From NCBI GenBank assembly GCA_015065295.1, contig SVQN01000024.1:1-37029 (forward strand): 37,029 nt of DNA, written 5' to 3'. Within the stretch, counting starts at the first letter, position 1, and every line of letters starts with the position of its first letter. Under the pieces are notes generated by a model. That model was not told where the DNA came from, made no database searches, and was given only the letters and a program-made list of their open reading frames with translations. Made by a program: the position numbers and the translations under genes. This DNA comes from Oscillospiraceae bacterium (GTDB lineage Bacteria > Bacillota > Clostridia > Oscillospirales > CAG-272). Positions 2,653 through 37,029 of the stretch are shown here, piece by piece.

Positions 2653-2713
2653 AAAGTTTTTGAAAAAGGGGTGTGGGGGAAAAACGTTTTTCAAAAAGTT
2701 TTTCCCCCACGAA
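2653..2713 (+). repeat. Operon-flanking hairpin repeat, copy a (plus orientation)
   Basis: Begins AAAGTTTTTGAAAAAGGGG, then a stem GTGGGGGAAAAAC...GTTTTTCCCCCAC with complementary T and A runs at the top. It lies 11 nt after the stop of the Gfo/Idh gene and reads against it. It forms an inverted pair with the copy at 3853-3905. Confidence 0.85.
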
Positions 2714-2724
2714 CATCCTGTTCT

Positions 2725-3768
2725 TCAGTTGTTTTCAAAAATCGTGCCCTTCTTGACGGTTTCGATCACGTCAATGACCTTTGCCGCCTGATCGAGCGTG
2801 ACGGGGAACGCCTTGCCGAAACGGATGGTTTCGTACAGCGCGTCCCAGATGCGGGTCGTACCGTCGCTGAACGGGATGTCTTCTTCGATCCAGTTCAGTT
2901 TTTCGGAATTGCCGAAGCTGGCACCCGTGCCGGGTGTGTTGGGATCGGCTTCAATCTTCGCAAGCGGTACTTCCGGATCGAGATAGCGCAGGTGGAACTT
3001 GCCGCCTTCGGAGATCATCGCGCCTCTGGAGCCGTAGATCATGTATTCCGGGGTGGGAAGTGCAACACCGCCGGAGATTTCCATATCCACGATGCGTCCG
3101 TTGATGCCGGTGAAGACGATTTTGATGTGGTCTTCGCAGTCACCGGCCGCCGCCACCTGCTTGATGGACGAATACAGGGTCTTGTAATCCCCGCCGCAGA
3201 AACGGAGCGAGTGGTCGATGATGTGCGGACCCCAGTTGAGAAGCTGACCGCCGCCGAATTCGGAAATGGTCTGCCAGTCGTTGCGCCGCTGGTATCCGTT
3301 GCGGGTCAGCTTGATTTCGTACACATCGCCGAGCTTGCCGGAGTCGATGATCTGCATTGCGGTCTCGAAGCCGCCTTCGAACCGGCGGTTGTGACGGATG
3401 TACAGGTGCGGGCCGCCGGGTTCGCTGCCGAGAGCGATGAGTTCGCGCGCCTGTTCGGTCTTCATGCAGAACGGCTTTTCGAGGAAGACGTTCTTGCCCG
3501 CCTTGAGTGCCATTTTCGCGTGCTTGAAGTGATCCACGGAGCGGGTAGCGATGGTGACGAGCTCGACCTCGGGGTCAGCGAGCAGGTCTTCGATCTTCGT
3601 ATACGCGCGGCTGCCGAATTCTTCGGTAAAGGGAACGGTACGTTCCTCGATGATATCGCAGACGGCGGCGAAGTGGAACTTATCCCCTCTGGGACGAAGT
3701 TCGTTCCGGTGCATTCCGTTTCCGGCACGTCCGAGACCGATCAGGCCGACCTGAATGGGCTTTGTCAT
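2725..3768 (-). CDS. Gfo/Idh/MocA family NAD(P)-dependent oxidoreductase
   Basis: Dehydrogenase of sugars, inositols or similar polyols, 347 aa. Residues 1-120 are a Rossmann domain with GLIGLGRAGNG near the N-terminus, and the family's EKP motif appears in NVFLEKPFCM. The rest is the mixed alpha/beta substrate domain, with a GGGQLLNWGPHIIDH segment carrying the usual catalytic-region His. The substrate cannot be read from sequence. The start at MTKPIQVG is chosen because GGAGG lies 9 nt upstream and a consensus promoter at 3811-3839 drives it; reading further upstream would translate the hairpin repeat. It is a single-gene unit bracketed by inverted repeat copies a and b. Confidence 0.88.
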   Translation of the reverse strand: MTKPIQVGLIGLGRAGNGMHRNELRPRGDKFHFAAVCDIIEERTVPFTEEFGSRAYTKIEDLLADPEVELVTIATRSVDHFKHAKMALKAGKNVFLEKPFCMKTEQARELIALGSEPGGPHLYIRHNRRFEGGFETAMQIIDSGKLGDVYEIKLTRNGYQRRNDWQTISEFGGGQLLNWGPHIIDHSLRFCGGDYKTLYSSIKQVAAAGDCEDHIKIVFTGINGRIVDMEISGGVALPTPEYMIYGSRGAMISEGGKFHLRYLDPEVPLAKIEADPNTPGTGASFGNSEKLNWIEEDIPFSDGTTRIWDALYETIRFGKAFPVTLDQAAKVIDVIETVKKGTIFENN

Positions 3769-3810
3769 AAGAAAAATCCTCCGTTTGGTATGAGTTTGGA
3801 TGGTATTTGT

Positions 3811-3839
3811 ATTATAGCAAATCTGCGGGGGTGTGTCAA
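3811..3839 (-). promoter_or_regulatory. sigma-A promoter of the Gfo/Idh gene
   Basis: Minus strand TTGACA (3839-3834), 17-nt spacer, TATAAT (3816-3811); a full consensus match. It lies downstream of repeat copy b, so this copy is outside the transcript. Confidence 0.85.
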
Positions 3840-3852
3840 TTGGGGAGGGGGA

Positions 3853-3905
3853 ACGTTGGGGAAACTTTTTGGAAAAAGTTTCCCCAAACCCCTTCAAAAA
3901 CTTTT
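3853..3905 (-). repeat. Operon-flanking hairpin repeat, copy b (minus orientation)
   Basis: Stem GGGGAAACTTTTT (3858-3870) and AAAAAGTTTCCCC (3873-3885), perfectly complementary, followed on the plus strand by AAACCCCTTCAAAAACTTTT. It reads in the same sense as the Gfo/Idh gene and lies just upstream of that gene's promoter. Confidence 0.88.
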
Positions 3906-4004
3906 AATCTGTGTAGCCGGTTTGTTTGGCTGATATGATGGGGAGGGGATTTTTGAAATATACCGTGGAGTTCGGCTGAAATTTGTTAGACCTGTTGGCG
4001 TGGG

Positions 4005-4365
4005 GCTGGTTTTTATCTCTACGAAAATCGTTATGGGGAAGTCAGGCTCCGCCAAGACCCTGACTTCCCGCGCCATGTTGCGACTGCGTGATATAGTACG
4101 TCAATTTTGAATTCAGCTACGGTATGTTGGTTTTCCGCGCGTCTTGGCTAGCCCGCCGTCCGCGCTTTACGTTCATTCGGTTAGCTGACATACAGTTTTC
4201 TTCGAAAAGCACGAACGGCGTCAGCCAAGGAGTGCGGGGGATTACCAAATGTAGCTGAATTTTGACGAGACGCACCTCATCACTGTATCTCCATACGGCG
4301 TGGGAAGTCAGGGTCTTGGCGGAGCCTGACTTCCCCAGAACGATTTTCGAAGAATTTCAAACCAA
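4005..4365. repeat. ~360-bp degenerate fold-back (palindromic) element
   Basis: The stretch is an imperfect long inverted repeat centred near 4185. Matching blocks are GAAAATCGTT (4023) with AACGATTTTC (4339), a 40-bp GC-rich block (4035-4074 with 4297-4336), GTCAATTTTGAATTCAGCTAC (near 4100) with GTAGCTGAATTTTGAC (4251), and CTTGGCT/GCCGT with ACGGC/AGCCAAG near the middle. Each GC-rich block is itself a hairpin, GGGAAGTCAGG with CCTGACTTCCC. No credible gene lies inside. The structure fits a non-autonomous fold-back or MITE-like element, or the remnant of one. Confidence 0.75.
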
Positions 4366-4467
4366 CATCATGTCAGCGGATGGGATCAACTATATGGCTA
4401 CGCACAGACCCAAGAAAATCCCCCTAGAAAACAAAAAATCCGCACATCCTACATTTGATAGCAGACC

Positions 4468-4522
4468 AAAAAGGTTTGGAAGGGGTTTGGGGGAACCTTT
4501 CCTCAAAAGGTTCCCCCAAGAG
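4468..4522 (+). repeat. Operon-flanking hairpin repeat, copy c
   Basis: Stem GGGGGAACCTTT (4489-4500) and AAAAGGTTCCCCC (4505-4517). The stem has GG/CC where other copies have A/T, and both arms changed together. It lies 23 nt upstream of the flippase promoter and reads with that gene. Confidence 0.88.
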
Positions 4523-4545
4523 CGTCCCCATTGGCAACTTTCAAC

Positions 4546-4574: not shown

Positions 4575-4610
4575 GACGTATATAAATTTAAAGGTAAAGA
4601 AGGTATCATT

Positions 4611-6194
4611 CTGAAAAACAATTCTGACGGAACACAGAGCCGGAGAGGGAGCTTCCTGCAGGGGGCGTTCATCCTCACCATCTCCACGGCGTTCGTAAAG
4701 CTCGCCGGACTGCTGTTTACCATTCCGATTGCCAATATGCTCGGCGGCGACGGTATGGGCTATTTTTATGCCGCCTACGATATTTATAATATGCTTGCCG
4801 TGCTGGCGTCCGCGGGGCTTCCCGTTGCCGTTTCCCGTATGGTCAGCGAAACCCTCGTCTCCGGCAATACCGCCGAAGCCGACCGCATTTATACGATTTC
4901 CGTCCGGATCTTCACGATCCTCGGCGCGGTGATCGCCGCCGTCATGTTCTTCGGCGCGGACGGTCTGGCTGCCATTATCAAGAACCCCAACGCCGGAATG
5001 TCCATCCGCGCTCTGTCGATTACGTCGTTCTGCGCGTTTGTCATGTCCGCTCTGCGCGGGTACTTCCAGGGACATTCCATCATGAAGTATACCGCCGTTT
5101 CGCAGGTCATCGAAGCCTTTGCCAAGCTGTTCTTCGGCTGCCTGCTCGCGTATGTCCTGCTGAAAACCGAGTATGCCTACGTCGGCGGTTCCGCCGGTGC
5201 GATTCTCGGCGTGTCTCTCGGCGCGGTTCTGGCCGTGGTCTATCTGCTGTTCAATAAAAAGCGCATGGACAGTACCAAGGAACCCTGTGACCTCCCCGTC
5301 CGCGATACCCGCAGCATCGTGAAGGAACTCTTCCGGATTGCGATTCCCGTATCTCTCGGCGCGTCCGTCATGAGCCTTGTCAACCTCATCGACACGACCG
5401 TCATCATGCGGATTCTGCAGGACGGTCTCGGCTATACCTACGAACGCGCGAACTGGCTCTACGGCGTGTTCGGCAACGCGAAGAAGATTTTCAACTTCCC
5501 CTCCGCGTTCATCGTCCCGTTCTCGGTCAGCATTCTTCCCGTCCTGACCGCCGCGTTCACGGCAAAGGATAAGGAAGGCGTGCGTACCAATATGGTAACG
5601 TGCTTCAAGTACGCGCTTCTTCTCGCACTTCCCGCCGGGATCGGCATCACCGTTCTGGCGGAACCGATCATGCACATTATCTACTTCAACACGCCCGAAG
5701 AAGCGGCGGCGGGTACGCCTCTGCTGGCAATCTTCGGGATTGCGGTGATCCTGTACGCGGTCGTTTCCATCAGCGGCGCGATCCTGCAGGCGTTCGGACA
5801 CGTCAACCGTCCGCTCATCAGCCTCACGGTCGGCGGCATCATCAAGTGCGTGCTGAACGCGGTGCTGGTCGGCGTGGAATCCGTGAATATCGCGGGTGCG
5901 CCGATTGCAACCTGCGTCTGCTACGTTGTGATGATCGGCATGAATGTCTGCTTCCTCCGCAAGTACCTCGTCGGATGCGGCGCGATCCTCTGGAACACCG
6001 TCAAAACGGCAGCGGCGGCTCTCCTCATGGGCGGCTTTGCCTACGGTGCGTACGCGGTACTGTCCGGTGCGCTCGGCGTGAAGATGGGCGGTATGGTGTC
6101 GATCATGGGTGCCGTTGTGGTTTATGCGGTGCTGGTGATCGTACTGAAAATCGTTACAATCAAGGAACTCAAGTCCATGGTAAGACGTGGATAA
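4611..6194 (+). CDS. SpoVB/MurJ-type polysaccharide or lipid-linked precursor flippase (MOP superfamily)
   Basis: Multi-spanning membrane transporter, 527 aa with the start used here, close to the ~520 aa usual for SpoVB-like proteins. The N-terminus FLQGAFILTISTAFVKLAGLL followed by IPIANMLGGDGMGYFYAAYDIYNML is typical of the SpoVB/YtgP branch, and about 14 hydrophobic helices follow. These proteins move lipid-linked cell-wall or exopolysaccharide precursors across the membrane. The first in-frame ATG (4737) would remove conserved helix 1. Upstream the frame is open from 4572 with no ATG, GTG or TTG. AGAAGG at 4598-4603 points to CTG at 4611 or ATT at 4608 as the start. A strong promoter sits at 4546-4574. 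Confidence 0.85.
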   Translation: MKNNSDGTQSRRGSFLQGAFILTISTAFVKLAGLLFTIPIANMLGGDGMGYFYAAYDIYNMLAVLASAGLPVAVSRMVSETLVSGNTAEADRIYTISVRIFTILGAVIAAVMFFGADGLAAIIKNPNAGMSIRALSITSFCAFVMSALRGYFQGHSIMKYTAVSQVIEAFAKLFFGCLLAYVLLKTEYAYVGGSAGAILGVSLGAVLAVVYLLFNKKRMDSTKEPCDLPVRDTRSIVKELFRIAIPVSLGASVMSLVNLIDTTVIMRILQDGLGYTYERANWLYGVFGNAKKIFNFPSAFIVPFSVSILPVLTAAFTAKDKEGVRTNMVTCFKYALLLALPAGIGITVLAEPIMHIIYFNTPEEAAAGTPLLAIFGIAVILYAVVSISGAILQAFGHVNRPLISLTVGGIIKCVLNAVLVGVESVNIAGAPIATCVCYVVMIGMNVCFLRKYLVGCGAILWNTVKTAAAALLMGGFAYGAYAVLSGALGVKMGGMVSIMGAVVVYAVLVIVLKIVTIKELKSMVRRG

Positions 6195-6216: not shown

Positions 6217-6434
6217 AACGTGAGTTCGATGGATTTCCATATTGACTGCTGAACCCGTAGGGAGCGGCGCCCCCGTCGCTCCATCGAACGATTTGAATAT
6301 ACAAAATTTATTAAATCCAAAATTGAACTTCCATATACAGACAATTTATTTATCCAAATCGTTTCACGGAGCGACGAGGGCGCCGCTCCCTACAGGTGTA
6401 TCTGTCCTTTTGGTTTCTTCATCGAACTCACGTT
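6217..6434. mobile_element. MITE-like element B1 (218 bp, 17-bp terminal inverted repeats)
   Basis: Left end AACGTGAGTTCGATGGA (6217-6233) and right end TTCATCGAACTCACGTT (6418-6434) match with one mismatch. Inside, GTAGGGAGCGGCGCC... at 6257-6282 pairs with 6368-6393 (25 of 26 positions), so most of the element folds on itself. It has no coding capacity. The right end lies 26 nt before the GDPD start codon. No convincing target-site duplication was seen; GAAT next to both ends is only suggestive. Confidence 0.75.
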
Positions 6435-7314: not shown

Positions 7315-7596
7315 AACGTGAATTCGATGGAAATTTCAATCGGTTGACCGCACATCCGTTTTTTGTGAATTGGTAAATACACCCATACAGCAAATACACC
7401 TGTTTCGGATAAGTCGTATATACCCCCATAGGGAGCTCAATCCCTTTCAACCGAACGAAATTTGATCGCCACATCGTAGGGCGGGGGCTTGCTCCCGCCG
7501 TGAAGAAATTCAAACCGTTCGTTCCGGCGGGAGATAAACCCCCGCCCTACGGTGTTGAGCGTTTTCTTATCAAATCATATCCATCGAACTCACGTT
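7315..7596. mobile_element. MITE-like element B2 (282 bp, 17-bp terminal inverted repeats)
   Basis: Ends AACGTGAATTCGATGGA (7315-7331) and TCCATCGAACTCACGTT (7580-7596), one mismatch. It holds a ~58-bp module (7371-7428) that recurs twice near 10.3-10.7 kb, and a GC-rich hairpin with arms 7476-7500 and 7525-7550 beginning GTAGGGCGGGGG. The right end lies 37 nt before the pepF start. The element fills most of the 339-bp gap between the GDPD and pepF genes and has no coding capacity. Confidence 0.78.
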
Positions 7597-9409: not shown

Positions 9410-9449
9410 ACGATAAATTTGCACTCACTCAATCAAGTTACATAGATTG

Positions 9450-9507
9450 AAGTTTTTTGAAAGGGGTTTGGGGAAAACTTTTTCGAAAAAAAGTTTTCCC
9501 CAAGAAA
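9450..9507 (+). repeat. Operon-flanking hairpin repeat, copy d
   Basis: AAGTTTTTTGAAAGGGG then stem GGGGAAAACTTTTT (from 9470) with AAAAAGTTTTCCCC (ending 9501), then AAGAAA. It ends about 15 nt before the MBL-fold gene start and reads with that gene. Confidence 0.9.
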
Positions 9508-9516: not shown

Positions 9517-10233
9517 ATGAGACTTACCTTTATCGGAACGAGCCACGGCGTACCGGAACCGGAACGTCGATGCTCCTGCACCATGATCGAAGTGGAGGGA
9601 CGGTATTACTTCATCGACATGGGAACGCAGGCAATCGAAGACCTCATCCACCGCGGGATTTCCATTGACGCGGTCAAGGGGATCTTCATTACCCATCCTC
9701 ACGGCGACCATACGAACGGTCTGATTTCCTTCGTTGACCTCGCGGGATGGTATTTCAAGACCGCCGAACCGCAGGTCTACCTGCCCGAAGAAAGCCTCGT
9801 TACCGGCATGAAGGCGTGGCTGACCGGCGGAAAAGACCTCCGCGAAGGAATCGGTCTGCACGTCTACGAAGCGGGCGTGATTTACGACGACGGGTTTGCC
9901 AAGGTTACGGCGATCGCCACCCAGCACTGCCATCATTCCCACGCCTTCCTCTTTGAGGCGGAAGGAAAGAAAATCCTCTTCACCGGCGACCTCGCGCATC
10001 CCACGAAGGACTTCCCGCAGGTGGCGTTTGAAGAAGAACTCGACCTCATCGTGGTGGAATCCGCGCATTTCTCGTCCGACGCGACGGAAGCGGTTCTCGC
10101 CAATGCGAAGGTCAAGCGCGTTCTCCACAACCACATCAGCCCGAGATGGGCGGAAGACCTCGCAAGAATGGCAAAGAACGAACACCATTACCAGTACGGC
10201 AAGGCGTTCGACGGCATGGAAGTGGTTCTGTAA
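9517..10233 (+). CDS. MBL-fold metallo-hydrolase (RNase Z-like subgroup)
   Basis: Metallo-beta-lactamase-fold hydrolase, 238 aa. The start MRLTFIGTSHGVPEPERRCSC resembles the RNase Z/phosphodiesterase branch, and the metal motif HPHGDH is at residues 60-65, followed by further His residues in TQHCHHSHAF and a GD in LFTGDLAHP. The substrate is unknown; it is shorter than true RNase Z and lacks a clear exosite, so tRNA processing is not claimed. The start at 9517 is the first residue of the conserved fold; reading from 9457 would add 20 residues encoded by the hairpin repeat. There is no good Shine-Dalgarno, only AAGAAAG about 9 nt upstream. A strong terminator follows at 10250. Confidence 0.82.
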   Translation: MRLTFIGTSHGVPEPERRCSCTMIEVEGRYYFIDMGTQAIEDLIHRGISIDAVKGIFITHPHGDHTNGLISFVDLAGWYFKTAEPQVYLPEESLVTGMKAWLTGGKDLREGIGLHVYEAGVIYDDGFAKVTAIATQHCHHSHAFLFEAEGKKILFTGDLAHPTKDFPQVAFEEELDLIVVESAHFSSDATEAVLANAKVKRVLHNHISPRWAEDLARMAKNEHHYQYGKAFDGMEVVL

Positions 10234-12782: not shown

Positions 12783-12805
12783 AAACCTTTTATTTGAAAA
12801 GGTTT
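12783..12805 (+). promoter_or_regulatory. AT-rich leader hairpin of the histidine operon
   Basis: AAACCTTTT (12783-12791), loop ATTTG, AAAAGGTTT (12797-12805), followed by TTG. Its right arm is the first segment of repeat copy e. It could compete with the stronger hairpin that follows; no T-box sequence is present. Confidence 0.45.
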
Positions 12806-12857
12806 TTGAAAGGGGTTCGGGGAAAACTTTTTCCTTAAAAAAGTTTTCCCCGAAAAA
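12797..12857 (+). repeat. Operon-flanking hairpin repeat, copy e, in the his leader
   Basis: AAAAGGTTTTTGAAAGGGG then stem GGGGAAAACTTTTT (12819-12832) with AAAAAGTTTTCCCC (12838-12851). It ends 11 nt before the hisZ ATG and is transcribed with the operon. It pairs with inverted copy f at the operon's far end. Confidence 0.9.
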
Positions 12858-15877: not shown

Positions 15878-16891
15878 ATGATCCCCTTCCAGAGAAAAAA
15901 CGATGCGCTCGTCAGCCGTGACGAAATGCAGGCGATTTACGAAAAAATCCGCACCCCGAAGAAACTCGGCGCGGTCATGAAGTGGGAAAACGATTTCACC
16001 GATTCTCCGAGCATTTTCCGTCATGACGGAATGTTCTATATGTACTTCATCGCCATTTCCAAGGATACCCATATCTCCGGCTACGAAACCCACCTCGCAA
16101 AATCCGCCGATCTCGTGAACTGGGAATACGTCGGACCGGTTTTCCGCCGGAACGACCTCAATCACTGGGACAGCAAGCAGGTTGCCGGATATGCCGCGTT
16201 CTTTGATCCGGCATTCGGCGGCACGAACGAGCTTGGCAAGGTGAACGGCAATTACTATATCACCTACCTCGCCGGAAACAGCGACGGTTACGAACCCGAC
16301 CCGCTTCTCATGGGCATGGCGAAGACCTCCGATCCCACGGCGGCGGACAGCTTCGTTCGTTTTGAAGACCCGATCCTCACTCCGCAGGACGAAGACAGCC
16401 GTCCGAAGGAAACGAAGACCCTGTACAAGAGCTACGTTTTCGCCGATCCGCTGAACTCTACCGGACATCCCTACGTCAACTGCTTCAACGCCAAGGGCGA
16501 AGACAACCGCGAACGTCTGTTCCTTGCCGTTTCGGACGACGGCGAACACTGGGAACGCTGGGGGGAACACGCGATCATCGACCTTGCGTCCGACGGGCCG
16601 TGTGACTTCATCAGCGGCGACCCGCAGATCGTGCTGATCGGCGATATTTACGTCATGTTCTTCTTCCGCTTCGGAAAGGGCGCAGGTGCTTATGACAGCT
16701 TCGCCTGCTCGAAGAACCTCGTGGACTGGACGATCTGGGACGGCGAACCGCTCATCAAGCCCGAATTCGAGTGGGAAAACGTCCACGCGCACAAGCCGTG
16801 GGTTGTCAAGTACGAAGGGAAGGTTTACCACTTCTACTGCGCCGTCAATAAGAATAACGAACGGTATATTGCGCTCGCCGTTTCGGAATAA
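15878..16891 (+). CDS. Five-bladed beta-propeller glycosidase-like protein (GH43/GH32-like) inside the his operon
   Basis: 337 aa. The repeated pattern of short blades is visible: DSPSIFRHDGMFYMYFIAIS with LAKSADLVNWEYVGPVF, then NGNYYITYLAGNS, LFLAVSDDGEHWERWG, GDIYVMFFFRFG with SKNLVDWTIWDGEPL, and EGKVYHFYCAVNK. This is the signature of GH43, GH32 and related propeller glycosidases, with Asp in the first blade as the likely nucleophile or base. No signal peptide is seen, so it would act in the cytoplasm. The substrate and exact family are not resolved. It starts 2 nt after hisD and is followed 30 nt later by hisC, so it is co-transcribed with histidine synthesis. Confidence 0.72.
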   Translation: MIPFQRKNDALVSRDEMQAIYEKIRTPKKLGAVMKWENDFTDSPSIFRHDGMFYMYFIAISKDTHISGYETHLAKSADLVNWEYVGPVFRRNDLNHWDSKQVAGYAAFFDPAFGGTNELGKVNGNYYITYLAGNSDGYEPDPLLMGMAKTSDPTAADSFVRFEDPILTPQDEDSRPKETKTLYKSYVFADPLNSTGHPYVNCFNAKGEDNRERLFLAVSDDGEHWERWGEHAIIDLASDGPCDFISGDPQIVLIGDIYVMFFFRFGKGAGAYDSFACSKNLVDWTIWDGEPLIKPEFEWENVHAHKPWVVKYEGKVYHFYCAVNKNNERYIALAVSE

Positions 16892-16921
16892 ATCGAAAAG
16901 AGTGCGGAAAGTTACCCGATT

Positions 16922-17986
16922 ATGAGCAGATTTTTAGATAAAAAATTCGCGGCACTGGAAGCCTACGTTCCCGGCGAACAGCCGCGCGATAAGAAATACA
17001 TCAAACTCAACACCAACGAATCCCCGTTCCCGCCGTGTCCTGCCATTCTGGATGCGGTGAACGGTGCGGCGGCGGCTGACCTCCGTCTGTATTCCGATCC
17101 GACGTCCATTGCAGTCAAGCGGGCGATTGCCGATTTTTACGGCGTTTCTCCCGAATGGGTGTTCGTTTCCAACGGTTCCGACGAATCGCTGAACTTCCTT
17201 TTTATGGCGTTCTGCGAAAACGGTGCGGCGTACGCGGACATCACCTACGGGTTCTATCAGGTGTTCGCCGACCTGTACCAGAAGAAGACCACCGTCGTTC
17301 CGCTGGAGGACGACTTCACCCTCGATCCCGAAAAACTCATGGCGACGACGGAAACCCTGTTTATCGCCAATCCGAACGCACCGACCGGCATCTGCTTCCC
17401 GCCGGACGTGATCGAAACAATCGTGACATCCAATCCCGACCGTCTGGTTGTCGTGGACGAAGCGTACATCGACTTCGGCGGCGAATCCGTCGTTCCGCTG
17501 ACGCAGAAGTATGACAACCTCGCCGTTGTGCAGACATTCTCGAAATCCCGTCAGCTTGCGGGCGCACGTCTCGGCTTCACGATTGCCAATCCCGCGATCA
17601 TCGAGGGGCTGGAAAAGATCAAATATTCCACGAACCCCTACAATGTCAACCGCCTGACCCAGCTCTGCGGCGTTCTGGCGATGGAGGATCGCGCGTATTT
17701 CGACAAGACCCGCACCGCGATCATCGAAAACCGCGCATATACCGTGACCGAGCTGAAAAAGCGCGGCTTCACGATGACCGATTCCATGACCAACTTCATT
17801 TTCGCCAAGTCCGATAAAATTTCCGGCAAGGCGTATTACGACGGTCTCCGTGAACGCGGCGTTCTCGTGCGTTACTTCGGCAAGGCGCGCATCGCCGATT
17901 ATGTCCGCATCACCATCGGCTCCCGCGAAGAAATGGAAGCCCTCGTTGCGGCGACGGACGATATTCTTGCGAATGTGGGGGAATGA
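16922..17986 (+). CDS. hisC: Histidinol-phosphate aminotransferase
   Basis: PLP-dependent fold-type I aminotransferase, 354 aa, making histidinol phosphate from imidazole acetol phosphate. Recognised by IKLNTNESPFPP at the start, FVSNGSDESLNFLF, IANPNAPTGICFP, VVDEAYIDFGG and the PLP lysine in TFSKSRQLAGARLGF. The C-terminal VRITIGSREEMEALV is also typical. It follows the glycosidase-like gene by 30 nt and is followed by hisB after 1 nt. The Shine-Dalgarno is weak (GGAAAG, 12 nt upstream). Confidence 0.95.
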   Translation: MSRFLDKKFAALEAYVPGEQPRDKKYIKLNTNESPFPPCPAILDAVNGAAAADLRLYSDPTSIAVKRAIADFYGVSPEWVFVSNGSDESLNFLFMAFCENGAAYADITYGFYQVFADLYQKKTTVVPLEDDFTLDPEKLMATTETLFIANPNAPTGICFPPDVIETIVTSNPDRLVVVDEAYIDFGGESVVPLTQKYDNLAVVQTFSKSRQLAGARLGFTIANPAIIEGLEKIKYSTNPYNVNRLTQLCGVLAMEDRAYFDKTRTAIIENRAYTVTELKKRGFTMTDSMTNFIFAKSDKISGKAYYDGLRERGVLVRYFGKARIADYVRITIGSREEMEALVAATDDILANVGE

Positions 17987-20744: not shown

Positions 20745-21392
20745 ATGCTGAATATCAACGATCTCAAATTCGATGACCGCGGGCTGATTCCTGCGATTGT
20801 TGTCGATTATCTCACCCGCGACGTTCTTACGCTCGCATACATGAACCGCGAATCCCTTGAAATTTCCATGAAGGAAGGCCGCACCTGCTTCTGGTCCCGT
20901 TCCAGAAACGAACTGTGGCGCAAGGGCGAAACCAGCGGCAACGTCCAGCACATCGTCAAGATCACGGCGGACTGTGACCGTGACGCGCTGACCGTTCACG
21001 TCAAGAAGGACGGCCCCGCCTGCCACACCGGCGCGGAATCCTGCTTCAATGACGAAGTGTTCATCAGCGAAGAAATTTCCGACTTTACCGTGCGCGGTCT
21101 GATGAAGCTGATCGAAGGCCGCAAGACCGATCCGACCGAAGGCTCCTATACGACATATCTCTTCCAGAAGGGTCTTGACAAGATTCTGAAGAAGGTCGGC
21201 GAGGAATCCACGGAAGTCATCATCGCGGGCAAGGCGGAAGACAAGGCGGAAACCGTCTACGAAATCTGCGACCTGATCTATCATGTCCTTGTGCTGATGG
21301 TCGAAATGGGCATCTCCTACGAAGACATCATGAAGGAACTGTCCTCCCGTCATGTTGTTGACCACAAGGTCAAGCAGGAAAAAATGCAGTAA
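20745..21392 (+). CDS. hisIE: Bifunctional phosphoribosyl-AMP cyclohydrolase / phosphoribosyl-ATP pyrophosphatase
   Basis: Fusion that carries out steps two and three of the pathway, 215 aa. The HisI part (residues ~1-115) shows [36 protein letters not shown] and the zinc Cys segment CHTGAESCF. The HisE part (~120-210) shows [26 protein letters not shown], an all-alpha MazG-like domain with the acidic EESTE motif. It is the last gene of the operon; AGAAGGA lies upstream. Repeat copy f follows 10 nt after the stop. Confidence 0.95.
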
Positions 21393-21401: not shown

Positions 21402-21461
21402 TTTATTGGGGAGGAACTTTTTGCAAAAAGTTCCTCCCCAAACCCCTCTTCAAAAAACTTT
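21402..21461 (-). repeat. Operon-flanking hairpin repeat, copy f
   Basis: Stem GGGGAGGAACTTTTT (21408-21422) and AAAAAGTTCCTCCCC (21425-21439), perfectly complementary, then AAACCCCTCTTCAAAAAACTT. It reads against the his operon and forms an inverted pair with copy e. The stem GGAGG/CCTCC is unique to this copy and is changed on both arms. Confidence 0.9.
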
Positions 21462-21514
21462 ATACAAGATGAAGGGATAAAGAAAGTACGGATGTTTCGG
21501 GAGGAGGAATTTTT

Positions 21515-22582
21515 GTGCCGAAATTTTTGAAAATACTTTTGATTGTTGTATTAGTACTGGTGATTCTTGTGTTTGCCGTTGCGTTCCCGATTGTTTCGAT
21601 TTCTGTATACGATTCGATTTTTAAGGTACGCATCCAGACACCGCCGCACGTTGTTTTTACGGCGGACGATTATGAGGGACTGACGGTAGAAAATGTTTCA
21701 TTTGCAACCAAGCAGGGACATAATCTCGCCGGATATAAGTATCGAATGGAAGAAACGGACGCTCCCAAGGGTGTCGTTGTTCTTGCACACGGTTTCGGCG
21801 GAGGCGGTCACTGCGGGTATATGCCTGTGATCGAATATTTTGCGCGGAACGGTTATGCGGTCTTTTCTTATGACGCGACCGGGAACGATGCCAGCGAAGG
21901 AGAGTATGTCGGGGGGTTCCCTCAGGGAGTGATTGATCTTGATTACGCAGTCCAGTTTGTGAAAAACGATGCGGATTACAGCGGTCTTCCGATTTTCCTA
22001 GTTGGACACAGCTGGGGAGCGTATTCCGTTGGGAATGTACTGAATATTCACACGGATATCCGCGGTGCGGCAATGTTTGCCGGTTTCAATGAGTCAAAGC
22101 TGCTGATCCGTCAGACCGGTCTGGAGTATGTCGGCGGACTGGTCGATCTGATGCTTCCGTATGTACAGGCGTATGAATGGATTAAGTTCGGAGAACATGC
22201 TCTGACCACAGCCAATGAAGGATTCTCAGCGGCGGAAAACGCTGAAATTATGATTATCCACAGCAAGGATGACGGAGTAGTACGTCAGGAAAACGGGTAT
22301 GATCTGTTTATGGAAGAACATGGAGAGAATCCGCGGGTTCATTTTGCTCTCTATGATGACCGCGGTCACGACTACCTGTTTTACAACAGCGAAACCATGG
22401 CAGAACGTATGGTAATTGATGTTGATTACGATTTCTACCTGACAGACAACGGTCTTGAGAACACGGACGAGAACCGTGCGGCATTCCGCAAAGAGTCCAT
22501 TGATTATTCCGTGTATTATAAGATGGACGATGAGATCATGGGACAGGTACTCGCCATGTTTGATTCGAAAATTGATGGATAA
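21515..22582 (+). CDS. Membrane-anchored alpha/beta hydrolase (S33/Hydrolase_4-like), copy 1
   Basis: 355 aa. One N-terminal transmembrane helix (about residues 5-32) anchors an extracytoplasmic hydrolase domain. The oxyanion motif HGFGGGGHCGYM, nucleophile elbow GHSWG with Ser166, acid Asp in HSKDDGVV, and His in YDDRGHDYL give a complete triad. The substrate is unknown; related proteins are lipases, esterases or aminopeptidases. It starts with GTG after GGAGGAATTTTT. It is followed after 18 nt by a paralogue with the same length and motif positions. Base use looks more AT-rich than in the his genes, which may mark transfer. Confidence 0.8.
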   Translation: MPKFLKILLIVVLVLVILVFAVAFPIVSISVYDSIFKVRIQTPPHVVFTADDYEGLTVENVSFATKQGHNLAGYKYRMEETDAPKGVVVLAHGFGGGGHCGYMPVIEYFARNGYAVFSYDATGNDASEGEYVGGFPQGVIDLDYAVQFVKNDADYSGLPIFLVGHSWGAYSVGNVLNIHTDIRGAAMFAGFNESKLLIRQTGLEYVGGLVDLMLPYVQAYEWIKFGEHALTTANEGFSAAENAEIMIIHSKDDGVVRQENGYDLFMEEHGENPRVHFALYDDRGHDYLFYNSETMAERMVIDVDYDFYLTDNGLENTDENRAAFRKESIDYSVYYKMDDEIMGQVLAMFDSKIDG

Positions 22583-22600
22583 ACGTTAAGAAGGGATTTT

Positions 22601-23668
22601 ATGCTGAAATTTTTTAAAATACTTTTGATCGTTCTTCTGGTACTGGTGGTTCTCATATTTGCCGTTGTGCTTCCCATTCTTTCGATTTCGGTTTATAAGT
22701 CTGTTTTTAACGTTCGCTTTGAAACATCGCCGGATAATTATTTTACGGCGGATGATTACGAGGGATTGACGGTTGAAAATGTCTTGTTCAAAACCAAGCA
22801 GGGACATAACCTCGCGGGATATAAGTACCGGATGGACGATGTAGACAGTCCGAAGGGAGTGGTCGTTTATGTCCACGGCTTCGGCGGAGGCGGTCACTGC
22901 GGACATATGCCGATGATTCACTATCTGGCAGAAAACGGTTACGCCGTATTTGCTTACGACGCGACCGGGAACGATGCCAGCGAAGGCAAATACATCGGCG
23001 GTTTCCCGCAGGGAATTATTGACCTTGATTATGCAATCCGGTATGTGAAGAACGATGCGGCGTACAGCGGTCTTCCGATTTTCCTGATGGGACACAGCTG
23101 GGGGGCATATTCCGTCGGAAATGTACTGAATTTCCATACGGATGTCAAAGGTGCGGTCCTGTTTGCCGGAATCGACAGTTCTTCGGTGCTTTTTCGTCAG
23201 GAAGGTGCCAAGTATGCCGGAGACTGGGCAGAGCTGCTCATTCCGTATGTCCGGGTATATGAGCGGATCAAGTACGGCGAATATTCCATGACAACCGCGA
23301 ATAAGGGCTTTGCGTCTGCGGAAAATGCAGAAATTCTGGTTGTTCACAGTAAGGATGACGATACAGTGCTTCAGGAAAACGGATATGATCTGTTTATGGC
23401 GGAACACGGGGACAACGAACGTGTTCATTTCGTTCTCTATGACGACCGTGGGCACAACTATCTGTTCTACAGCGAAGATACAATGATCGAACGGCAGTTG
23501 ATTGATATCGACTACGACTTCTATTTGATGGATAACAATCTGGAGCGGAACGATGAAACGCGCGCCGCGTTCCGGAAGGAATTCGTGGACTATTCGGTTT
23601 ACTATAAAATGGACGATGAACTCATGGGACAGGCGGTTGCCATGTTCGACCGGCAGCTCGGAAAATAA
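22601..23668 (+). CDS. Membrane-anchored alpha/beta hydrolase (S33/Hydrolase_4-like), copy 2
   Basis: 355 aa, gene duplicate of the preceding gene; the Ser nucleophile is also residue 166 and no gaps are needed around it. Helix LKFFKILLIVLLVLVVLIFAVVLPIL anchors it. The triad is Ser166 in GHSWGAYS, Asp in HSKDDDTVL and His in DDRGHNYLF. Differences concentrate in the region after the nucleophile (residues ~185-215), the likely lid or substrate zone, so the two may have different substrates. AAGAAGGGA precedes the ATG. A terminator follows 10 nt after the stop. Confidence 0.8.
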   Translation: MLKFFKILLIVLLVLVVLIFAVVLPILSISVYKSVFNVRFETSPDNYFTADDYEGLTVENVLFKTKQGHNLAGYKYRMDDVDSPKGVVVYVHGFGGGGHCGHMPMIHYLAENGYAVFAYDATGNDASEGKYIGGFPQGIIDLDYAIRYVKNDAAYSGLPIFLMGHSWGAYSVGNVLNFHTDVKGAVLFAGIDSSSVLFRQEGAKYAGDWAELLIPYVRVYERIKYGEYSMTTANKGFASAENAEILVVHSKDDDTVLQENGYDLFMAEHGDNERVHFVLYDDRGHNYLFYSEDTMIERQLIDIDYDFYLMDNNLERNDETRAAFRKEFVDYSVYYKMDDELMGQAVAMFDRQLGK

Positions 23669-23726: not shown

Positions 23727-23737
23727 CTTATAGTATA

Positions 23738-23797
23738 AAGTTTTTTGAAAGGGGGTCGGGGAAAACTTTTTTTCAAAAAAGTATTCCCCGAGAAAAA
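23738..23797 (+). repeat. Operon-flanking hairpin repeat, copy g
   Basis: AAAGTTTTTTGAAAGGGGG, stem GGGGAAAACTTTTTT with AAAAAAGTATTCCCC; one stem mismatch, the only imperfect stem besides j. It lies between two convergent units and reads against cysN. Confidence 0.85.
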
Positions 23798-23801: not shown

Positions 23802-25379
<1,578 letters not shown>

Positions 25380-28819: not shown

Positions 28820-28865
28820 ATAAAACCATCAAATCTGCACGAACTTATTTATTCTTCACAGATTG

Positions 28866-28923
28866 AAGTTTTTTGAAAGGGGTTTGGGGGAATCTTTTAT
28901 TCAAAAAAGATTCCCCCAAGAAA
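28866..28923 (+). repeat. Operon-flanking hairpin repeat, copy h, in the trk leader
   Basis: AAGTTTTTTGAAAGGGG then GGGGGAATCTTTT with AAAAGATTCCCCC; the T-C in the left arm is matched by G-A in the right arm. The stem ends at 28917, 8 nt before the trkA ATG. It forms an inverted pair with copy i. Confidence 0.9.
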
Positions 28924-28925: not shown

Positions 28926-30290
28926 ATGAACATAGTAATCGTCGGCTGCGGCAAGGTCGGATTTGCGCTTGCCAAGCAGCTTTCCGTGGAAAATCACGAT
29001 ATCACGATCATCGACAACAGCGAAAAAGTGATCGAAAAGGCGCAGGAAACGCTGGACGTGATGGTCATGTCCGGCAACGGCGCGGCACTCGACATCCAGC
29101 GGGAAGCGCGGGTGGATGAAGCCGATCTGCTGATTGCCATTACCCATTCGGACGAACTGAATCTGCTCTGCTGCATCGTCGCCAAGCGGCTGGGATGCCG
29201 CCATACAATCTGCCGCGTGCGGAACGCGGACTATATGAATCAGCTTCAGTTCATGCGCGACGACTTCGGCCTGTCGATGACGGTCAATCCGGAATTTGCG
29301 ACCGCGCGGACAATTTTCCGCTTTTTGCAGTTCCCGTCGTTCCTGAAGATCGACTCATTTGCCAAGGGGCGCGTGGAACTGGTGGAACTCAAGATCGCCG
29401 AAGACAGCATTCTGGTCGGCAAAAGCCTTGACAAACTGACGACGGAGCTGCACCTGAAAGTTCTTGTGTGCGTTGTCGAACGGGACAATAACACGTTCAT
29501 TCCGAAGGGGGACTTTGTCCTCCGCGCCGGTGACAAGATCAACGTGACCGCGCCGCGTTCGGAACTGGCGAAGATGATTAAGAAGCTGAACATCAGTACG
29601 CAGAAGATCCGCAACGTCATGATGATCGGCGGCGGCCGGATTGCGGAATACCTTGCGGACGAACTCATCAAATCCGGCGTGGACGTAAAGATCATCGAAC
29701 GCGACCGGGAACGCTGCATGGAACTTGCCGCACGGTACCGGGACGCGTTGGTCATCAACGAAGACGGCTCCAACCACGACGTTCTTCTGGCGGAAGGAAT
29801 CCGCGAGACGGACGCGATCGTCACGCTGACGGGGATGGACGAACAGAATCTGGTGATTTCCCTGTACGCGGAACACGTCGGCGTGCCGAAGACGGTCACG
29901 AAGATGAACCGTATCGAATATGCGGATCTGTTTTCCGACAAGGAACTCGGCAGCACGGTCTGCCCGAAGGAAGTCATCGCGTCCGAAATCATCCGGTATG
30001 TGCGCTCCATTGACAATACCGACGCGTCGATCATCACGCTCCACCGCATTGTCGAAGGAAAGGCGGAGGCGATTGAATTCATTGCCAACGCACAGACGGC
30101 GGGACTGGACACTCCTCTGCGTGACCTGAAACTCAAGAAGAACATTCTGATTGCGTGCATCAACCACAACGGAACGATCATCATTCCGCGCGGTATGGAC
30201 CGGATCTCCTACGGCGACACGGTCATCGTGGTCACGGCGGCGGACGAACCGATTGCCGAACTGAACGATATTTTTGAGGAAGAGGACTGA
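28926..30290 (+). CDS. trkA: Trk potassium uptake regulatory subunit
   Basis: Cytoplasmic NAD(H)/ATP-binding gating protein, 454 aa, with two RCK_N-RCK_C units. The first Rossmann domain starts MNIVIVGCGKVGFALAKQL and the second IRNVMMIGGGRIAEYLADEL near residue 228; each is followed by a TrkA-C domain, the last ending SYGDTVIVVTAADEP. It gates the TrkH channel encoded 16 nt downstream. The ATG at 28926 is chosen because it begins the conserved strand; reading from 28863 would add residues encoded by the hairpin. No Shine-Dalgarno is present (AAGAAACC between stem and ATG). Confidence 0.93.
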   Translation: MNIVIVGCGKVGFALAKQLSVENHDITIIDNSEKVIEKAQETLDVMVMSGNGAALDIQREARVDEADLLIAITHSDELNLLCCIVAKRLGCRHTICRVRNADYMNQLQFMRDDFGLSMTVNPEFATARTIFRFLQFPSFLKIDSFAKGRVELVELKIAEDSILVGKSLDKLTTELHLKVLVCVVERDNNTFIPKGDFVLRAGDKINVTAPRSELAKMIKKLNISTQKIRNVMMIGGGRIAEYLADELIKSGVDVKIIERDRERCMELAARYRDALVINEDGSNHDVLLAEGIRETDAIVTLTGMDEQNLVISLYAEHVGVPKTVTKMNRIEYADLFSDKELGSTVCPKEVIASEIIRYVRSIDNTDASIITLHRIVEGKAEAIEFIANAQTAGLDTPLRDLKLKKNILIACINHNGTIIIPRGMDRISYGDTVIVVTAADEPIAELNDIFEEED

Positions 30291-31781: not shown

Positions 31782-31841
31782 AGTTTCTCGGGGAAAACTT
31801 TTTTGGAAAAAAGTTTTCCCCGAACCCCTTTCAAAAAACTT
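31782..31841 (-). repeat. Operon-flanking hairpin repeat, copy i
   Basis: CGGGGAAAACTTTTTT with AAAAAAGTTTTCCCCG, then AACCCCTTTCAAAAAACTT. It reads against trkH, 8 nt after its stop. Confidence 0.9.
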
Positions 31842-31853
31842 CAATCTGGGAAA

Positions 31854-31945
31854 AAAGACAAAGTTTGTGCAAATTTGGTGTAGAAACTGTCTGTACGATT
31901 GACAGACGGTTTTTCTTACAGAAAATCTGCACAAACTTTGTCTTT
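31854..31945. terminator. Nested bidirectional terminator between trkH and the YbjQ gene
   Basis: Outer arms AAAGACAAAGTTTGTGCA (31854-31871) and TGCACAAACTTTGTCTTT (31928-31945) are perfect 18-bp inverted repeats. Inside, AAACTGTCTGT (31884-31894) pairs with ACAGACGGTTT (31902-31912) followed by TTTC. A and T runs flank both sides. Confidence 0.8.
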
Positions 31946-31956
31946 CTTTTTTGGTG

Positions 31957-31976
31957 AAAAGTTTTTCCCCGCGAAA
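31957..31976 (+). repeat. Half copy of the operon-flanking hairpin repeat
   Basis: GAAAAGTTTTTCCCCGCGAA matches only the right arm and tail of the element; no left arm is present. It lies 8 nt from the end of the YbjQ-family gene. Confidence 0.5.
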
Positions 31977-33817: not shown

Positions 33818-33846
33818 TATAAAAAAATAAAAATCTTTCCCAGATT

Positions 33847-33907
33847 AAAAAGGTTTTTGGAAGGGGTTCGTGGAAACCTTTTTCCTCAAAAAAGGTTTCC
33901 CCGAGAT
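33847..33907 (+). repeat. Operon-flanking hairpin repeat, copy j
   Basis: AAAAAGGTTTTTGGAAGGGG then GGAAACCTTTTT with AAAAAAGGTTTCC. It lies 62 nt before the M14-like gene and reads with it. The first segment carries GG, as does the right arm, so both changed along with the left arm. Confidence 0.88.
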
Positions 33908-34950: not shown

Positions 34951-35000
34951 ACATTTCCGACGGAGAATTGCCGTTCTGCCACAATGTTTACAAAACAATA

Positions 35001-35029: not shown

Positions 35030-35064
35030 AAACAGGAATGTTATACCCACTGGAGGTTTTGGAC

Positions 35065-35787
35065 TTGAAATCCGATCATATAGAACAAAAAAATACCGGA
35101 CTCGGCATGACGGTGCTTCTCATGCTGATTCTGGCACTTTTCGGACGGGGTGTTTCGTATGTCAATACCGCCGCTGCCACGGATATTTCCTACGCCGCGT
35201 GGGTTCCGGCGGCACTGTCCTATCTCGGGGAACTGATCGTCTGTGCGCGGACGGTTCTCGGAATTGCCGGAATCACGTTTGCCATGTATTTCTTCGGAAA
35301 GCCGACGGCTCTCCGGTTTCTCGCCGGTACGGCAGGGGCTGCACTGGCGGATTATGCCGCGCGGTTCGGGATCGATCTGGCGACGAAAGCAATTGCGGAG
35401 ATGGAATTTCTGGCGGCAAGCTGGCTGTTCATGCAGTTTTTGTATGAGATGCTGTTCGTGGTTCTTTCCTGCGTTGTCGCGGGGGCGATGAAAGCGAAAA
35501 TGGAGCGGACAGAGGTGCGCCGTCAGGCGGAAAAGTACACCGTCAACCGCGCGTGCACGGTTTCGCTTCTGCTGGTCATGCTGTCACGTCTGGCACTTGA
35601 ACTATGGTATATTGTGGATTTTCTTCTGGCGTACACCAACATTACGGCGGCGGAAACAGCGGCGATGGTCGGCACGGTTCTGAAGGTGATCGTGATCTAC
35701 GGCGGCGCGGCGGTGCTTCTCGGCGAATGGTATACAGAACTGCTCAAGAAGCGGTACGGTGGTTTACAGAATGTGAAAAATGCCTGA
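35065..35787 (+). CDS. Polytopic membrane protein of unknown function
   Basis: 240 aa, not recognised. About six hydrophobic segments are visible (roughly residues 13-30, 42-75, 80-105, 120-145, 170-195, 205-230). There are no clear catalytic motifs. The start is taken as TTG at 35065 (MKSDHIEQK) because GGAGG lies 8 nt upstream; an in-frame ATG at 35038 lies before that ribosome site. The promoter-like sequence at 35001-35029 supports a separate transcript. It precedes the PPIase gene by 83 nt. Confidence 0.65.
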   Translation: MKSDHIEQKNTGLGMTVLLMLILALFGRGVSYVNTAAATDISYAAWVPAALSYLGELIVCARTVLGIAGITFAMYFFGKPTALRFLAGTAGAALADYAARFGIDLATKAIAEMEFLAASWLFMQFLYEMLFVVLSCVVAGAMKAKMERTEVRRQAEKYTVNRACTVSLLLVMLSRLALELWYIVDFLLAYTNITAAETAAMVGTVLKVIVIYGGAAVLLGEWYTELLKKRYGGLQNVKNA

Positions 35788-35803
35788 AAATGCGGATTTT
35801 CTC

Positions 35804-35832
35804 TTGAAAAAAACGCGGAAATATGGTATGAT
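35804..35832 (+). promoter_or_regulatory. sigma-A promoter of the trigger-factor-like lipoprotein
   Basis: TTGAAA (35804-35809), 17-nt spacer, TATGAT (35827-35832). Confidence 0.72.
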
Positions 35833-35870
35833 AATACGAATACACGAAGAAAAAGGATTGAAAAAACGAT

Positions 35871-36959
35871 ATGAAAAAACTGATTTCTCTGATTCTTGCG
35901 ATGCTGTGCACTGCAGGTGCGGCGGTATCGTGCGGAAAAGCGGAGGAAGGCTATGAAGGACTTCTGACGTATAAATACAACTACGACCTTTCCGAATACA
36001 TCGACCTTGCGGACTACAAGGGACTTCCGGCAAACGGCTACCGTTACGAAGTGACGGACGAAGAAGTGCAGCAGCAGATTCTGGCGACCCGCTCCTATTA
36101 TTCGCGTCTGACAGACGTGACCGACCGCGGCGCAGAACTGGGGGACACGGTATACATCGACTACGTCGGCACGATTGACGGTGCGGAATTCGAAGGCGGT
36201 TCGGAGGAAGACTGCGAGCTGGTTCTCGGTACCGGCACTTTTCTCGAAGGCTTTGAAGAAGCGATTGTCGGTGCGTATCCGGAAACGGAGCTGTCGGTGG
36301 ATCTGACGTTCCCGGAACCGTATCCGGCGGCACCGGATTTCTCGGGCAAGGACGTTCACTTTGACATTCACGTTCACGAAGTGTGCGAACAGGAACTGCC
36401 GGTATACGGCGAAGAATTCGTACGCGGCTATCTCGGCTACGAGTCGGTCGAAGAGTTCGAGTCCAATCTGCGCGTCCTGATCGAGGAACGCTACAAGGGT
36501 CTGTTCAATCAGTATGTCGTTGCACAGGTATGGCAGACGGTATATGACAATACAGTTGTCAAGCAGTACCCGCAGGAAGAGATGCAGGCGATGTACGACG
36601 ACATGGTGGAAGCGGAAAAGCTGTACGCAGAAGCGCAGGGCATCAACTTCGCGGACTATGTCAGCGTCAACTACCAGATGACGGAAGACGAATTCTACGC
36701 CTCCGTTCAGGAATACGTTGAAGGCCGCATCAAGGAAGAGATGATCTGCTACGCGATCGCCCGCGCGGAAGGCATCACCCTCACCGCCGAGGAATACTCC
36801 AAGCGCGCGACCGAATACGCCCTCGACATCTACGGCTTCGACTCCCTCGACGCTCTCGAGGCGATCTACAGCCACGGCACCATCTGCCAGATCCTCATGA
36901 TCGACAAGGCGAAGGAAGCTCTTGTGGAGTATGCGGATATTACTTATCTGAATGACTGA
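35871..36959 (+). CDS. Secreted trigger-factor-like peptidyl-prolyl isomerase lipoprotein
   Basis: 362 aa. The N-terminus MKKLISLILAMLCTAGAAVSC is a lipoprotein signal with Cys21 as the lipidation site, so the protein should be anchored outside the membrane. Residues ~85-170 are an FKBP-type domain (GDTVYIDYVGTIDGAEFEGG, VLGTGTFLEGFEEAIVGA, VDLTFPEPYPAAPDFSGKDVHFDIHVHEV), and residues ~180-350 are the helical trigger factor C-terminal chaperone domain (EEFVRGYLGYESVEEFESNLRVLIEERY). The ribosome-binding domain of cytosolic trigger factor is absent. It is likely a folding factor for exported proteins, comparable in role to PrsA. It has its own promoter; an inverted hairpin repeat follows. Confidence 0.88.
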   Translation: MKKLISLILAMLCTAGAAVSCGKAEEGYEGLLTYKYNYDLSEYIDLADYKGLPANGYRYEVTDEEVQQQILATRSYYSRLTDVTDRGAELGDTVYIDYVGTIDGAEFEGGSEEDCELVLGTGTFLEGFEEAIVGAYPETELSVDLTFPEPYPAAPDFSGKDVHFDIHVHEVCEQELPVYGEEFVRGYLGYESVEEFESNLRVLIEERYKGLFNQYVVAQVWQTVYDNTVVKQYPQEEMQAMYDDMVEAEKLYAEAQGINFADYVSVNYQMTEDEFYASVQEYVEGRIKEEMICYAIARAEGITLTAEEYSKRATEYALDIYGFDSLDALEAIYSHGTICQILMIDKAKEALVEYADITYLND

Positions 36960-36978
36960 TGTTTTGCTTGGGGTTACG

Positions 36979-37029
36979 TTTCTTGGGGAAACCTTTTTGA
37001 GGAAAAGGTTTCCCCAAACCCCTTCCAAA
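36979..37029 (-). repeat. Operon-flanking hairpin repeat, copy k, cut by the window end
   Basis: GGGGAAACCTTTTT with AAAAGGTTTCCCC then AAACCCCTTCCAAA to the edge. It reads against the lipoprotein gene and would pair with copy j across the M14 to PPIase segment. Confidence 0.85.

Follow-up and report, generated by a model that had tools for sequence, protein, structure and literature searches.

Hairpin repeats in the window

We analysed a 37,029-nt stretch of DNA (the window), contig SVQN01000024.1 of an Oscillospiraceae bacterium, which is contig 104 of the 135 contigs in a 2.90-Mb metagenome-assembled genome (MAG; G000, 70.8% complete). Its genes include a Gfo/Idh gene, a his gene run, trkA and trkH, and a run from an M14 peptidase to a PPIase/trigger-factor-like gene, and beside them stand copies of one hairpin repeat family. 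The original prediction, made from the sequence alone, listed eleven copies and one half copy sharing AAGTTTTTTGAAAGGGG and a stem that starts GGGG. All proved real: a covariance model of the family (R1) recovered the 11 copies at 42.8–89.7 bits and, together with a repeat search, placed the whole set as predicted. Seven of the 11 were used to build R1 and thus match by construction, and those at 2648, 3855, 4464, and 21403 were outside the build. The shared sequence is less uniform than described: the exact 17-mer AAGTTTTTTGAAAGGGG occurs four times in the window, and eight places match at ≤3 mismatches (shuffle mean 0.10), so that "share" is loose for three copies, one of them clipped by the window end. 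GGGG opens most stems, but the copy at 33847 has GTGG. There were no Rfam matches at gathering score across the window; eight weak matches below it (miRNA, snoRNA, CRISPR-repeat, and Chlorobi-1 families) all missed the 11 copies, and two of these fell in the interior of the element at 31785–31976.

To place the family more widely, we used a survey set of 804 kb from G000 (the window and 40 further stretches) and two related MAGs, G022 (87% identity to the window over 1.4 kb) and G012 (86%), each less than 75% complete. The features of the window are as follows, with R1 scores in bits.

2648–2713, + strand: copy a, after the Gfo/Idh gene (2725–3768, −), reading against the gene; 42.8
3855–3909, − strand: copy b, before Gfo/Idh, reading with the gene; left outward end of a class I element; 51.0
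4464–4522, + strand: copy c, before a MurJ-like gene (4737–6194, +); right outward end of the same element as b; 53.1
3855–4522, no strand: complete two-ended class I element (b, interior, and c), one of 15 large pairs aligned in the 804 kb
2610–4535 (approximate), no strand: segment with a, the Gfo/Idh gene, b, and c, absent at the locus in G012 and G022
9445–9506, + strand: copy d, before a metallo-beta-lactamase-fold gene (start 9517, no Shine-Dalgarno motif between); 87.7
12793–12856, + strand: copy e, leading into the his run, whose first gene (12863) is histidyl-tRNA-synthetase-like by Pfam; 82.1
21403–21465, − strand: copy f, past the final his-run gene (20745–21392; Pfam), reading against the gene; 65.5
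23733–23794, + strand: copy g, after the gene at 23802–25379 (−), reading against the gene; 84.8
28861–28922, + strand: copy h, in the trkA leader, with the hairpin ending 8 nt before the ATG at 28926; 87.3
28875–28880, + strand: GAAAGG, upstream of the hairpin in copy h and a candidate split Shine-Dalgarno of trkA from sequence and statistics
31785–31846, − strand: copy i, after trkH, reading against the gene; left outward end of a two-ended element; 89.7
31946–31976, + strand: half copy, which is the right outward partner of i in one element and is decayed; repeat family D4
33845–33907, + strand: copy j, before the M14 peptidase gene; 76.5
36980–37029, − strand: copy k, after the PPIase/trigger-factor-like gene, clipped by the window end; 61.4

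Beyond the window, the 17-mer at ≤2 mismatches gave 95 + 91 matches in the whole genome against 20 + 22 for a reversed control, and R1 found at least 150 copies in G000. Copy density in the sampled stretches was one per 5.2 kb in G000, 3.8 kb in G012, and 11.3 kb in G022, the G000 value being biased upward because contigs were picked for having matches. For scoring, the G000 list comprised the best 150 matches and six added by hand from the same list (156 in all), the G012 list the best 150 of 155 matches with opposite-strand duplicates dropped, and the G022 list the matches found there. The G000 copies are extragenic palindromes that occur singly and as 31 inverted pairs, with one of the 156 inside a coding sequence.

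Orientation and distance to genes

The original prediction held that copies before genes read with the gene and those after genes read against it, and this describes all 11 window copies and the half copy, once the called start of the gene after copy d is corrected to the in-frame ATG at 9517, 15 nt past the hairpin. We scored the same rule more generally as the hairpin end, not the AAGTTTTTTGAAAGGGG tail, facing the nearest gene, with genes called by a simple codon-usage caller made for the analysis that favours starts with a Shine-Dalgarno (SD) motif. Leaving aside copies at stretch edges (11 in G000, 11 in G012, and 1 in G022) and the one within a coding sequence, the hairpin end pointed to the nearest gene in 135/144 copies in G000, 125/133 in G012, and 19/20 in G022. 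Random placement in G000 gaps gave 50% facing the gene, with a maximum of 0.625 in 500 runs, which excludes random orientation. The miscalled start at copy d is one of the nine G000 exceptions, and among solitary copies whose flanks differ by at least 40 nt, 119 of 123 faced the gene. A REP/MITE-type family (repetitive extragenic palindrome/miniature inverted-repeat transposable element) with a real orientation rule is thus supported in the sampled stretches and seen again in two close relatives.

Distances to genes were short. Among gene-facing copies, the median from stop codon to module was 12 nt in G000 and 9 nt in both G012 and G022 (15, 13, and 13 nt to the last stem C), and the stem lay within 15 nt of the stop in 46/87, 55/84, and 10/15 stop-facing copies, respectively. 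Convergent gaps were favoured in G000 (29/144 copies vs about 12% of intergenic bases) and divergent gaps under-used (22/144 vs about 29%). The statement that no copy lies inside an operon was true of the window but not of G012, which has one within the his run between the glycosyl-hydrolase-like and aminotransferase genes (corresponding to the window gap 16891–16922). Avoidance of co-directional gaps was likewise not clear, these holding 93 of 144 copies (65%) vs 422 of 561 gaps (75%) and about 60% of bases.

Such tight spacing could point to a selected gene-boundary signal, REP-like as an mRNA 3′-end hairpin after stops and a leader structure before starts, in which misplaced or misoriented copies are purged and orientation reflects function. 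Position is conserved despite stem changes after trkH and before the his run, and for Escherichia coli REPs ribosome stalling has been reported when they lie within 15 nt of a stop (the part of PMC12306157 used here). However, copies at 5′ ends and those at 3′ ends have opposite strands relative to transcription, so a single RNA-level function cannot account for both, and close species differ by gain or loss of a copy in 36 of the 168 gaps compared. We regard a boundary signal of this kind as possible but doubtful.

A probable two-ended element

Two copies in one gap always faced outward, in 57/57 pairs (31 in G000, 24 in G012, and 2 in G022) and in 14/14 same-gap pairs from other genomes of the order. 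The G000 pairs have terminal inverted repeats and non-coding interiors, and 23 of the 31 fall into three classes of inner spacing (8 at 106–108 nt, 12 at 555–576 nt, and 3 at 445–460 nt), the remaining eight varying from 46 to 306 nt. In the window, b and c together delimit a single 668-nt repeated element of the large class, so the earlier view of c as a copy without a partner was wrong, and i and the half copy form a small two-ended element. The original prediction had further taken the transcription units bracketed by inverted pairs as a meaningful object. We found no support for this; the two ends of a bracket belong to different elements. Near-identical module pairs also occur at unrelated sites in G128 and G232, around palindromic interiors.

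Some solitary copies bear traces of the same arrangement. Among those in G000 whose tail side has 40 nt or more, 30/64 retain an inner-arm motif (nine retain both arms) vs 5/64 when shuffled, which suggests that some solitary copies may be halves of two-ended elements.

We consider it moderately probable that a palindromic element with two ends, non-autonomous, high in copy number, and MITE/REPIN-like (REPIN, paired REPs), supplies the copies as its ends or halves, and that its start-side module acts as a split-SD leader. Each end is a module of about 62 nt that comprises the tail AAGTTTTTTGAAAGGGG on its 5′ side, a loop of 3 nt, and a long hairpin, with GAGAAA or AAGAAA outside, and the two modules of an element face outward around a variable palindromic interior. 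The element resides almost solely in intergenic gaps, its outward end lying a few nucleotides from a stop or start codon, and the with/against rule would then be the outer end of the element facing the gene. Any transcription unit flanked by elements in both adjoining gaps would then show a bracket. After a stop codon, the module puts a hairpin into the mRNA, in most cases no more than about 25 nt from the stop; near a start codon, it often seems to replace the native ribosome-binding region, and the tail GAAAGG, drawn near the AUG by the hairpin, would serve as a split SD. The orientation of solitary copies would need an extra step of targeting or selection.

The interiors in G232 and G128 (L167–L177) have conserved, partly covarying palindromic arms around loops that are very variable among copies. 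In G128 (L173–L177), we also noticed by eye an extra outer inverted repeat, about 35 nt long, that lies outside the hairpin modules.

Presence and absence between species

In G000, 476 gaps measured 20 nt or more, and 144 of them had an orthologous gap in the sampled stretches of G012 or G022. The resulting 168 comparisons, in which at least two gaps are counted twice and "absent" means below the score cut-off, comprised 36 presence/absence differences, 32 shared copies, and 100 gaps without a copy. None showed the same site occupied in opposite orientation only, as an inversion would. Fourteen gaps were aligned, and at the near-clean empty sites among them pairs add approximately 244, 235, and 197 nt and single modules 60–81 nt; in the others, the insertion is mixed with further changes. 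These differences suggest that the family may be actively mobile.

The window copies differ in how far they are shared. Copies d, e, f, and i are present in both G012 and G022 (d as part of a pair in G012), and e, the his leader copy, is thus kept in three species. Copy g is present in G012, and G022 has a short terminator-like hairpin instead; h is absent from both relatives; j is present in G022 (the G012 contig ends before the site); and k is absent from G022, where an unrelated hairpin replaces it. The trkAH (h/i) and M14 to PPIase (j/k) brackets are therefore not inherited units, since h is missing from both relatives and k from G022. The his bracket (e/f) is present in all three genomes but merely shared, its ends coming from different elements.

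The original prediction also offered brackets as cassette ends; in such a reading, inward-facing pairs would mark mobile or exchangeable gene cassettes. For the Gfo/Idh unit alone this survives, because both relatives lack, at the locus, the roughly 1.9 kb that hold the gene and copies a, b, and c, and this bracket is a local gain or loss. The Gfo/Idh gene itself was not found in G012 or G022 at E ≤ 1e-60 (both MAGs being less than 75% complete), and its orthologues in four other members of the genus have neither the window neighbours nor the repeats in their 3–4-kb loci. The ends of the trkAH and M14 to PPIase brackets are not co-inherited, however, and the his bracket is simply common to all three genomes, making cassette ends a very improbable account of the family.

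Distribution in the order and RAYT

R1 matched 33 of 295 genomes of the order (G000 included) in 21 of 149 genera, in a search whose strict filters lose weak matches. In five other genomes of the order, 36 of 44 scorable copies (pooled) face the nearest gene.

The prediction had proposed looking for a REP-associated tyrosine transposase (RAYT; Y1 transposase, PF01797), and the outcome was mixed. It is absent from seven of the eight carriers that are at least 97% complete (G150, G189, G128, G232, G280, G065, and G181) and present in the eighth, G242, and in G214 (84% complete). There was none in G012 or G255, and G000 and G022 gave weak partial matches only (26 and 22 bits). G007, a member of the genus, has four Y1 matches and 13 repeat matches. 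With the Y1 family missing from seven of those eight carriers, we rejected RAYT-driven REP mobility as a general explanation.

Hairpin structure and third strand

In 139 distinct copies, 99.4% of the cells of the 15-pair hairpin are paired, and 12 pairs show double changes in an alignment fitted to the model. Cells changed on both sides numbered 300, vs a shuffled mean of 88 and at most 38 in slid controls. The stem is thus maintained as a stem, and this covariation is compatible with a structure kept as DNA or as RNA.

The tail is mirror-like to the purine arm, as in the intrastrand-triplex motifs described in the part of PMC4666352 consulted. Counting from the loop, 218 of 349 parsed copies (of 373) have 6/6 canonical triads (GGC, AAT, and TAT). 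Over seven positions in 125 unique pairs, canonical triads made up 0.690 vs 0.609 when shuffled (maximum 0.656 of 2000). Third strand and duplex agree in G or A at the second position after the G run in 277 of 295 copies (298 parsed; Fisher 2.7e-33, ignoring relatedness), and on unique combinations (46 in all) in 32 of 43 (p = 0.0019). Distant genomes have paired changes such as GAAAGGGAG-TTT-GAGGG in G280. Against triplex coding, the full mutual-information matrix shows no clean diagonal. The first loop is longer than the 1–6 nt of the ITxF rule, since the triad region runs into more stem. Coding of the module by a third strand is suggestive on these alignments, and triplexes may form. A bolder proposal is that a genome-wide family of intrastrand-triplex-coded repeats was domesticated as orientation-locked gene-border modules, giving a post-stop hairpin at 3′ ends and a split-SD leader at 5′ ends, where a mobile repeat would provide dozens of genes with their ribosome-binding site, with the third strand co-evolved with the duplex; we think this unlikely.

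We also tried an attenuator-like alternative pairing, in which the tail pairs with the left arm (AAGGTTT with AAACCTT). It was set aside as no fitting U tract was seen, without formal scoring.

Start-side copies and a candidate split Shine-Dalgarno

Across the three species, 82 copies lie within 40 nt of a start codon, and 54 have no SD-like motif in the linker; these 54 include one with an impossible start distance (−30), and a repaired tail parser gives 53. In the SD-less copies, the hairpin end is mostly 8–20 nt before the start. The other 28 keep an SD and lie further off (median 31.5 nt). Among element-free genes, 282/346 have an SD motif, or 255/346 with starts chosen without the SD bonus. 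By the repaired parser, GAAAGG stands directly before the hairpin in 43/53 tails of SD-less start-side copies, compared with 66/175 stop-side tails within 40 nt, 9/28 start-side tails with an SD, and 4/30 further from a start.

Alignments with element-free alleles show the native SD clearly gone at L106_18386, L100_16321, L095_3164, and L103_3631. At trkA and the his-run gap, the native leaders differ too, but their SD is weaker, and at L106_2842 the SD is retained. The final base of the loop pairs with the base that directly follows the stem (columns 38–108; UA in 71, CG in 63, and GC in 5 copies), so the stem is brought close to GAAAGGGG, and the his leader retains GAAAGGGG in all three species despite changes in the stem. 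These observations fit GAAAGG upstream of the hairpin as a candidate split SD, by analogy with known cases.

Points against the proposed element and its leaders

Several observations weigh against a two-ended element with split-SD leaders. Some gaps scored as absent hold a related hairpin, and others may hold decayed copies below the score cut-off. The orientation rule is broken in G280, where all six scorable copies face away, with the tail towards the nearest gene. No inner arm was found in 34/64 solitary copies, and some sites resemble single-module insertions, so the orientation of solitary copies calls for targeting or selection in addition to geometry. By eye, 11 pairs showed no consistent target-site duplication, and no transposase was identified, the search for a parent covering Y1 only. 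At gene starts, GAAAGG may mark a subfamily rather than an SD, and the exact pattern of the 16S 3′ end was not found in 25 genomes of the genus, leaving the anti-SD unread there.

Two further observations of this kind concern the stop side, where transcription terminators spreading as repeats or by gene conversion are a live rival. Read from the gene through the module and 110 nt beyond, a canonical terminator was found in 15/87, 20/84, and 2/15 stop-side copies of G000, G012, and G022, respectively, against 4, 11, and 2 in the opposite direction and 1/150 with the inner part shuffled. Another canonical terminator was present at 30/162 module-adjacent gene ends vs 113/391 element-free ends (G000 and G012), which favours a 3′-end role, and element-free orthologues sometimes have a similar GGGGAAAAC hairpin, with a T tract in G022. 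By the same test, however, 149/186 stop-side copies have no canonical terminator, the main hairpin is followed by CCCC rather than T, and start-side copies are left unexplained. Terminators are an improbable explanation of the family, and a two-ended element remains the reading we favour.

Other features of the window

The window also contains other extragenic repeats. The extragenic motif AACGTGAGTTCGATG occurs at 6217, 6420, 7315, 7582, and 10480, with 19 matches at ≤1 mismatch in the 804 kb, and palindromes at 6237–6413 and 7476–7550 contain GGGAGCGGCGCCCCCGTCGCTCC (10 matches) and GTAGGGCGGGGG (8 matches). The repeat GTAAATACACCCATACAGCAAATACACC lies at 7373, 10299, and 10669, with five matches in the 804 kb, and none of the matches to these four sequences is in a called coding sequence. 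The region 6237–6413 has two miRNA-family matches below gathering score.

Among genes, 1219–2544 encodes tandem paralogous small proteins, and the two tested match DUF3592. A glycosyl-hydrolase-family-43-like gene (15878–16891) lies within the his gene run, and two adjoining paralogous stretches at 21511–22896 are 78% identical over 300 nt.

Comparison with known systems

We found no description of the window repeat in the literature searched, which leaves out most subscription journals. The closest known kind is the potential intrastrand-triplex (PIT/TM_ECO) repeats, mixed with REPIN/MITE-like architecture; TM_ECO has been studied best among triplex-type repeats. Bacterial MITEs are non-autonomous, palindromic, intergenic, of partly defined lengths, and spread in lineage-specific bursts, all of which the window family resembles. 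Unlike in MITEs, neither a parent transposase (Y1 alone being sought) nor a target duplication (11 pairs, by eye) was found here. REP palindromes of RAYT systems carry a GTAG/CGTC tag alongside, which the window family does not have, its conserved tail being AAGTTTTTTGAAAGGGG.

In the parts of the REP and REPIN literature used here (PMC3733652, PMC2817692, and PMC3116915), these are short extragenic palindromes in high copy number that occur as singlets and inverted doublets, as in the window family, which differs in that most tested carriers lack RAYT and its palindromic interiors fall partly into size classes. Closeness to stops as such is already known, since E. coli REPs within 15 nt of a stop have been counted at 446 of 4,072, with an earlier count of 260 of 496 cited in the same text (PMC12306157, in part). 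The hairpin immediately after the stop codon is alike in the two, but here the module also stands before starts, with fixed orientation towards the gene.

For the start side, the nearest parallel is phage T4 genes 25 and 38, where a split SD was shown by mutation and probing (PMC3014915, in the part used). There, as proposed here, a hairpin between SD and AUG would shorten their distance, but our case comes from sequence statistics over about 50 gene starts with one repeat in common. Were the split-SD reading true, translation initiation would be rewired by a mobile repeat at many genes, among them trkA and, through its leader, the his run.

Likeness is closest to the PIT/TM_ECO/BoxC repeats as treated in the portion of Holder et al. 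2015 (PMC4666352) consulted: an intergenic hairpin that has a purine-rich arm, a second loop of 3 nt, and a third strand that is mirror-like, solitary or in inverted pairs with third strands inward (4/5 pairs of Table 1 as interpreted here), and uneven among close relatives. In the window family, by contrast, the third strand is 5′ (class I layout) rather than 3′, and the hairpin continues through an A/T-rich part. Copy numbers given there reach 143 in Enterobacter asburiae and stand at 23 in E. coli K-12, compared with about 150 or more copies per genome in three species here (at least 150 listed). If the mirror covariation holds up, it offers an evolutionary handle on intrastrand triplex formation in vivo, and true co-evolution of third strand and duplex would be evolutionary evidence for triplexes in living cells. 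The strongest difference lies in the relation to genes: in the same portion, TM_ECO/PIT repeats are reported to favour no strand orientation, operon arrangement, or distance, vs a strong orientation rule here, with a bias of about 94% and a spacing of a few nucleotides from the gene in three species.

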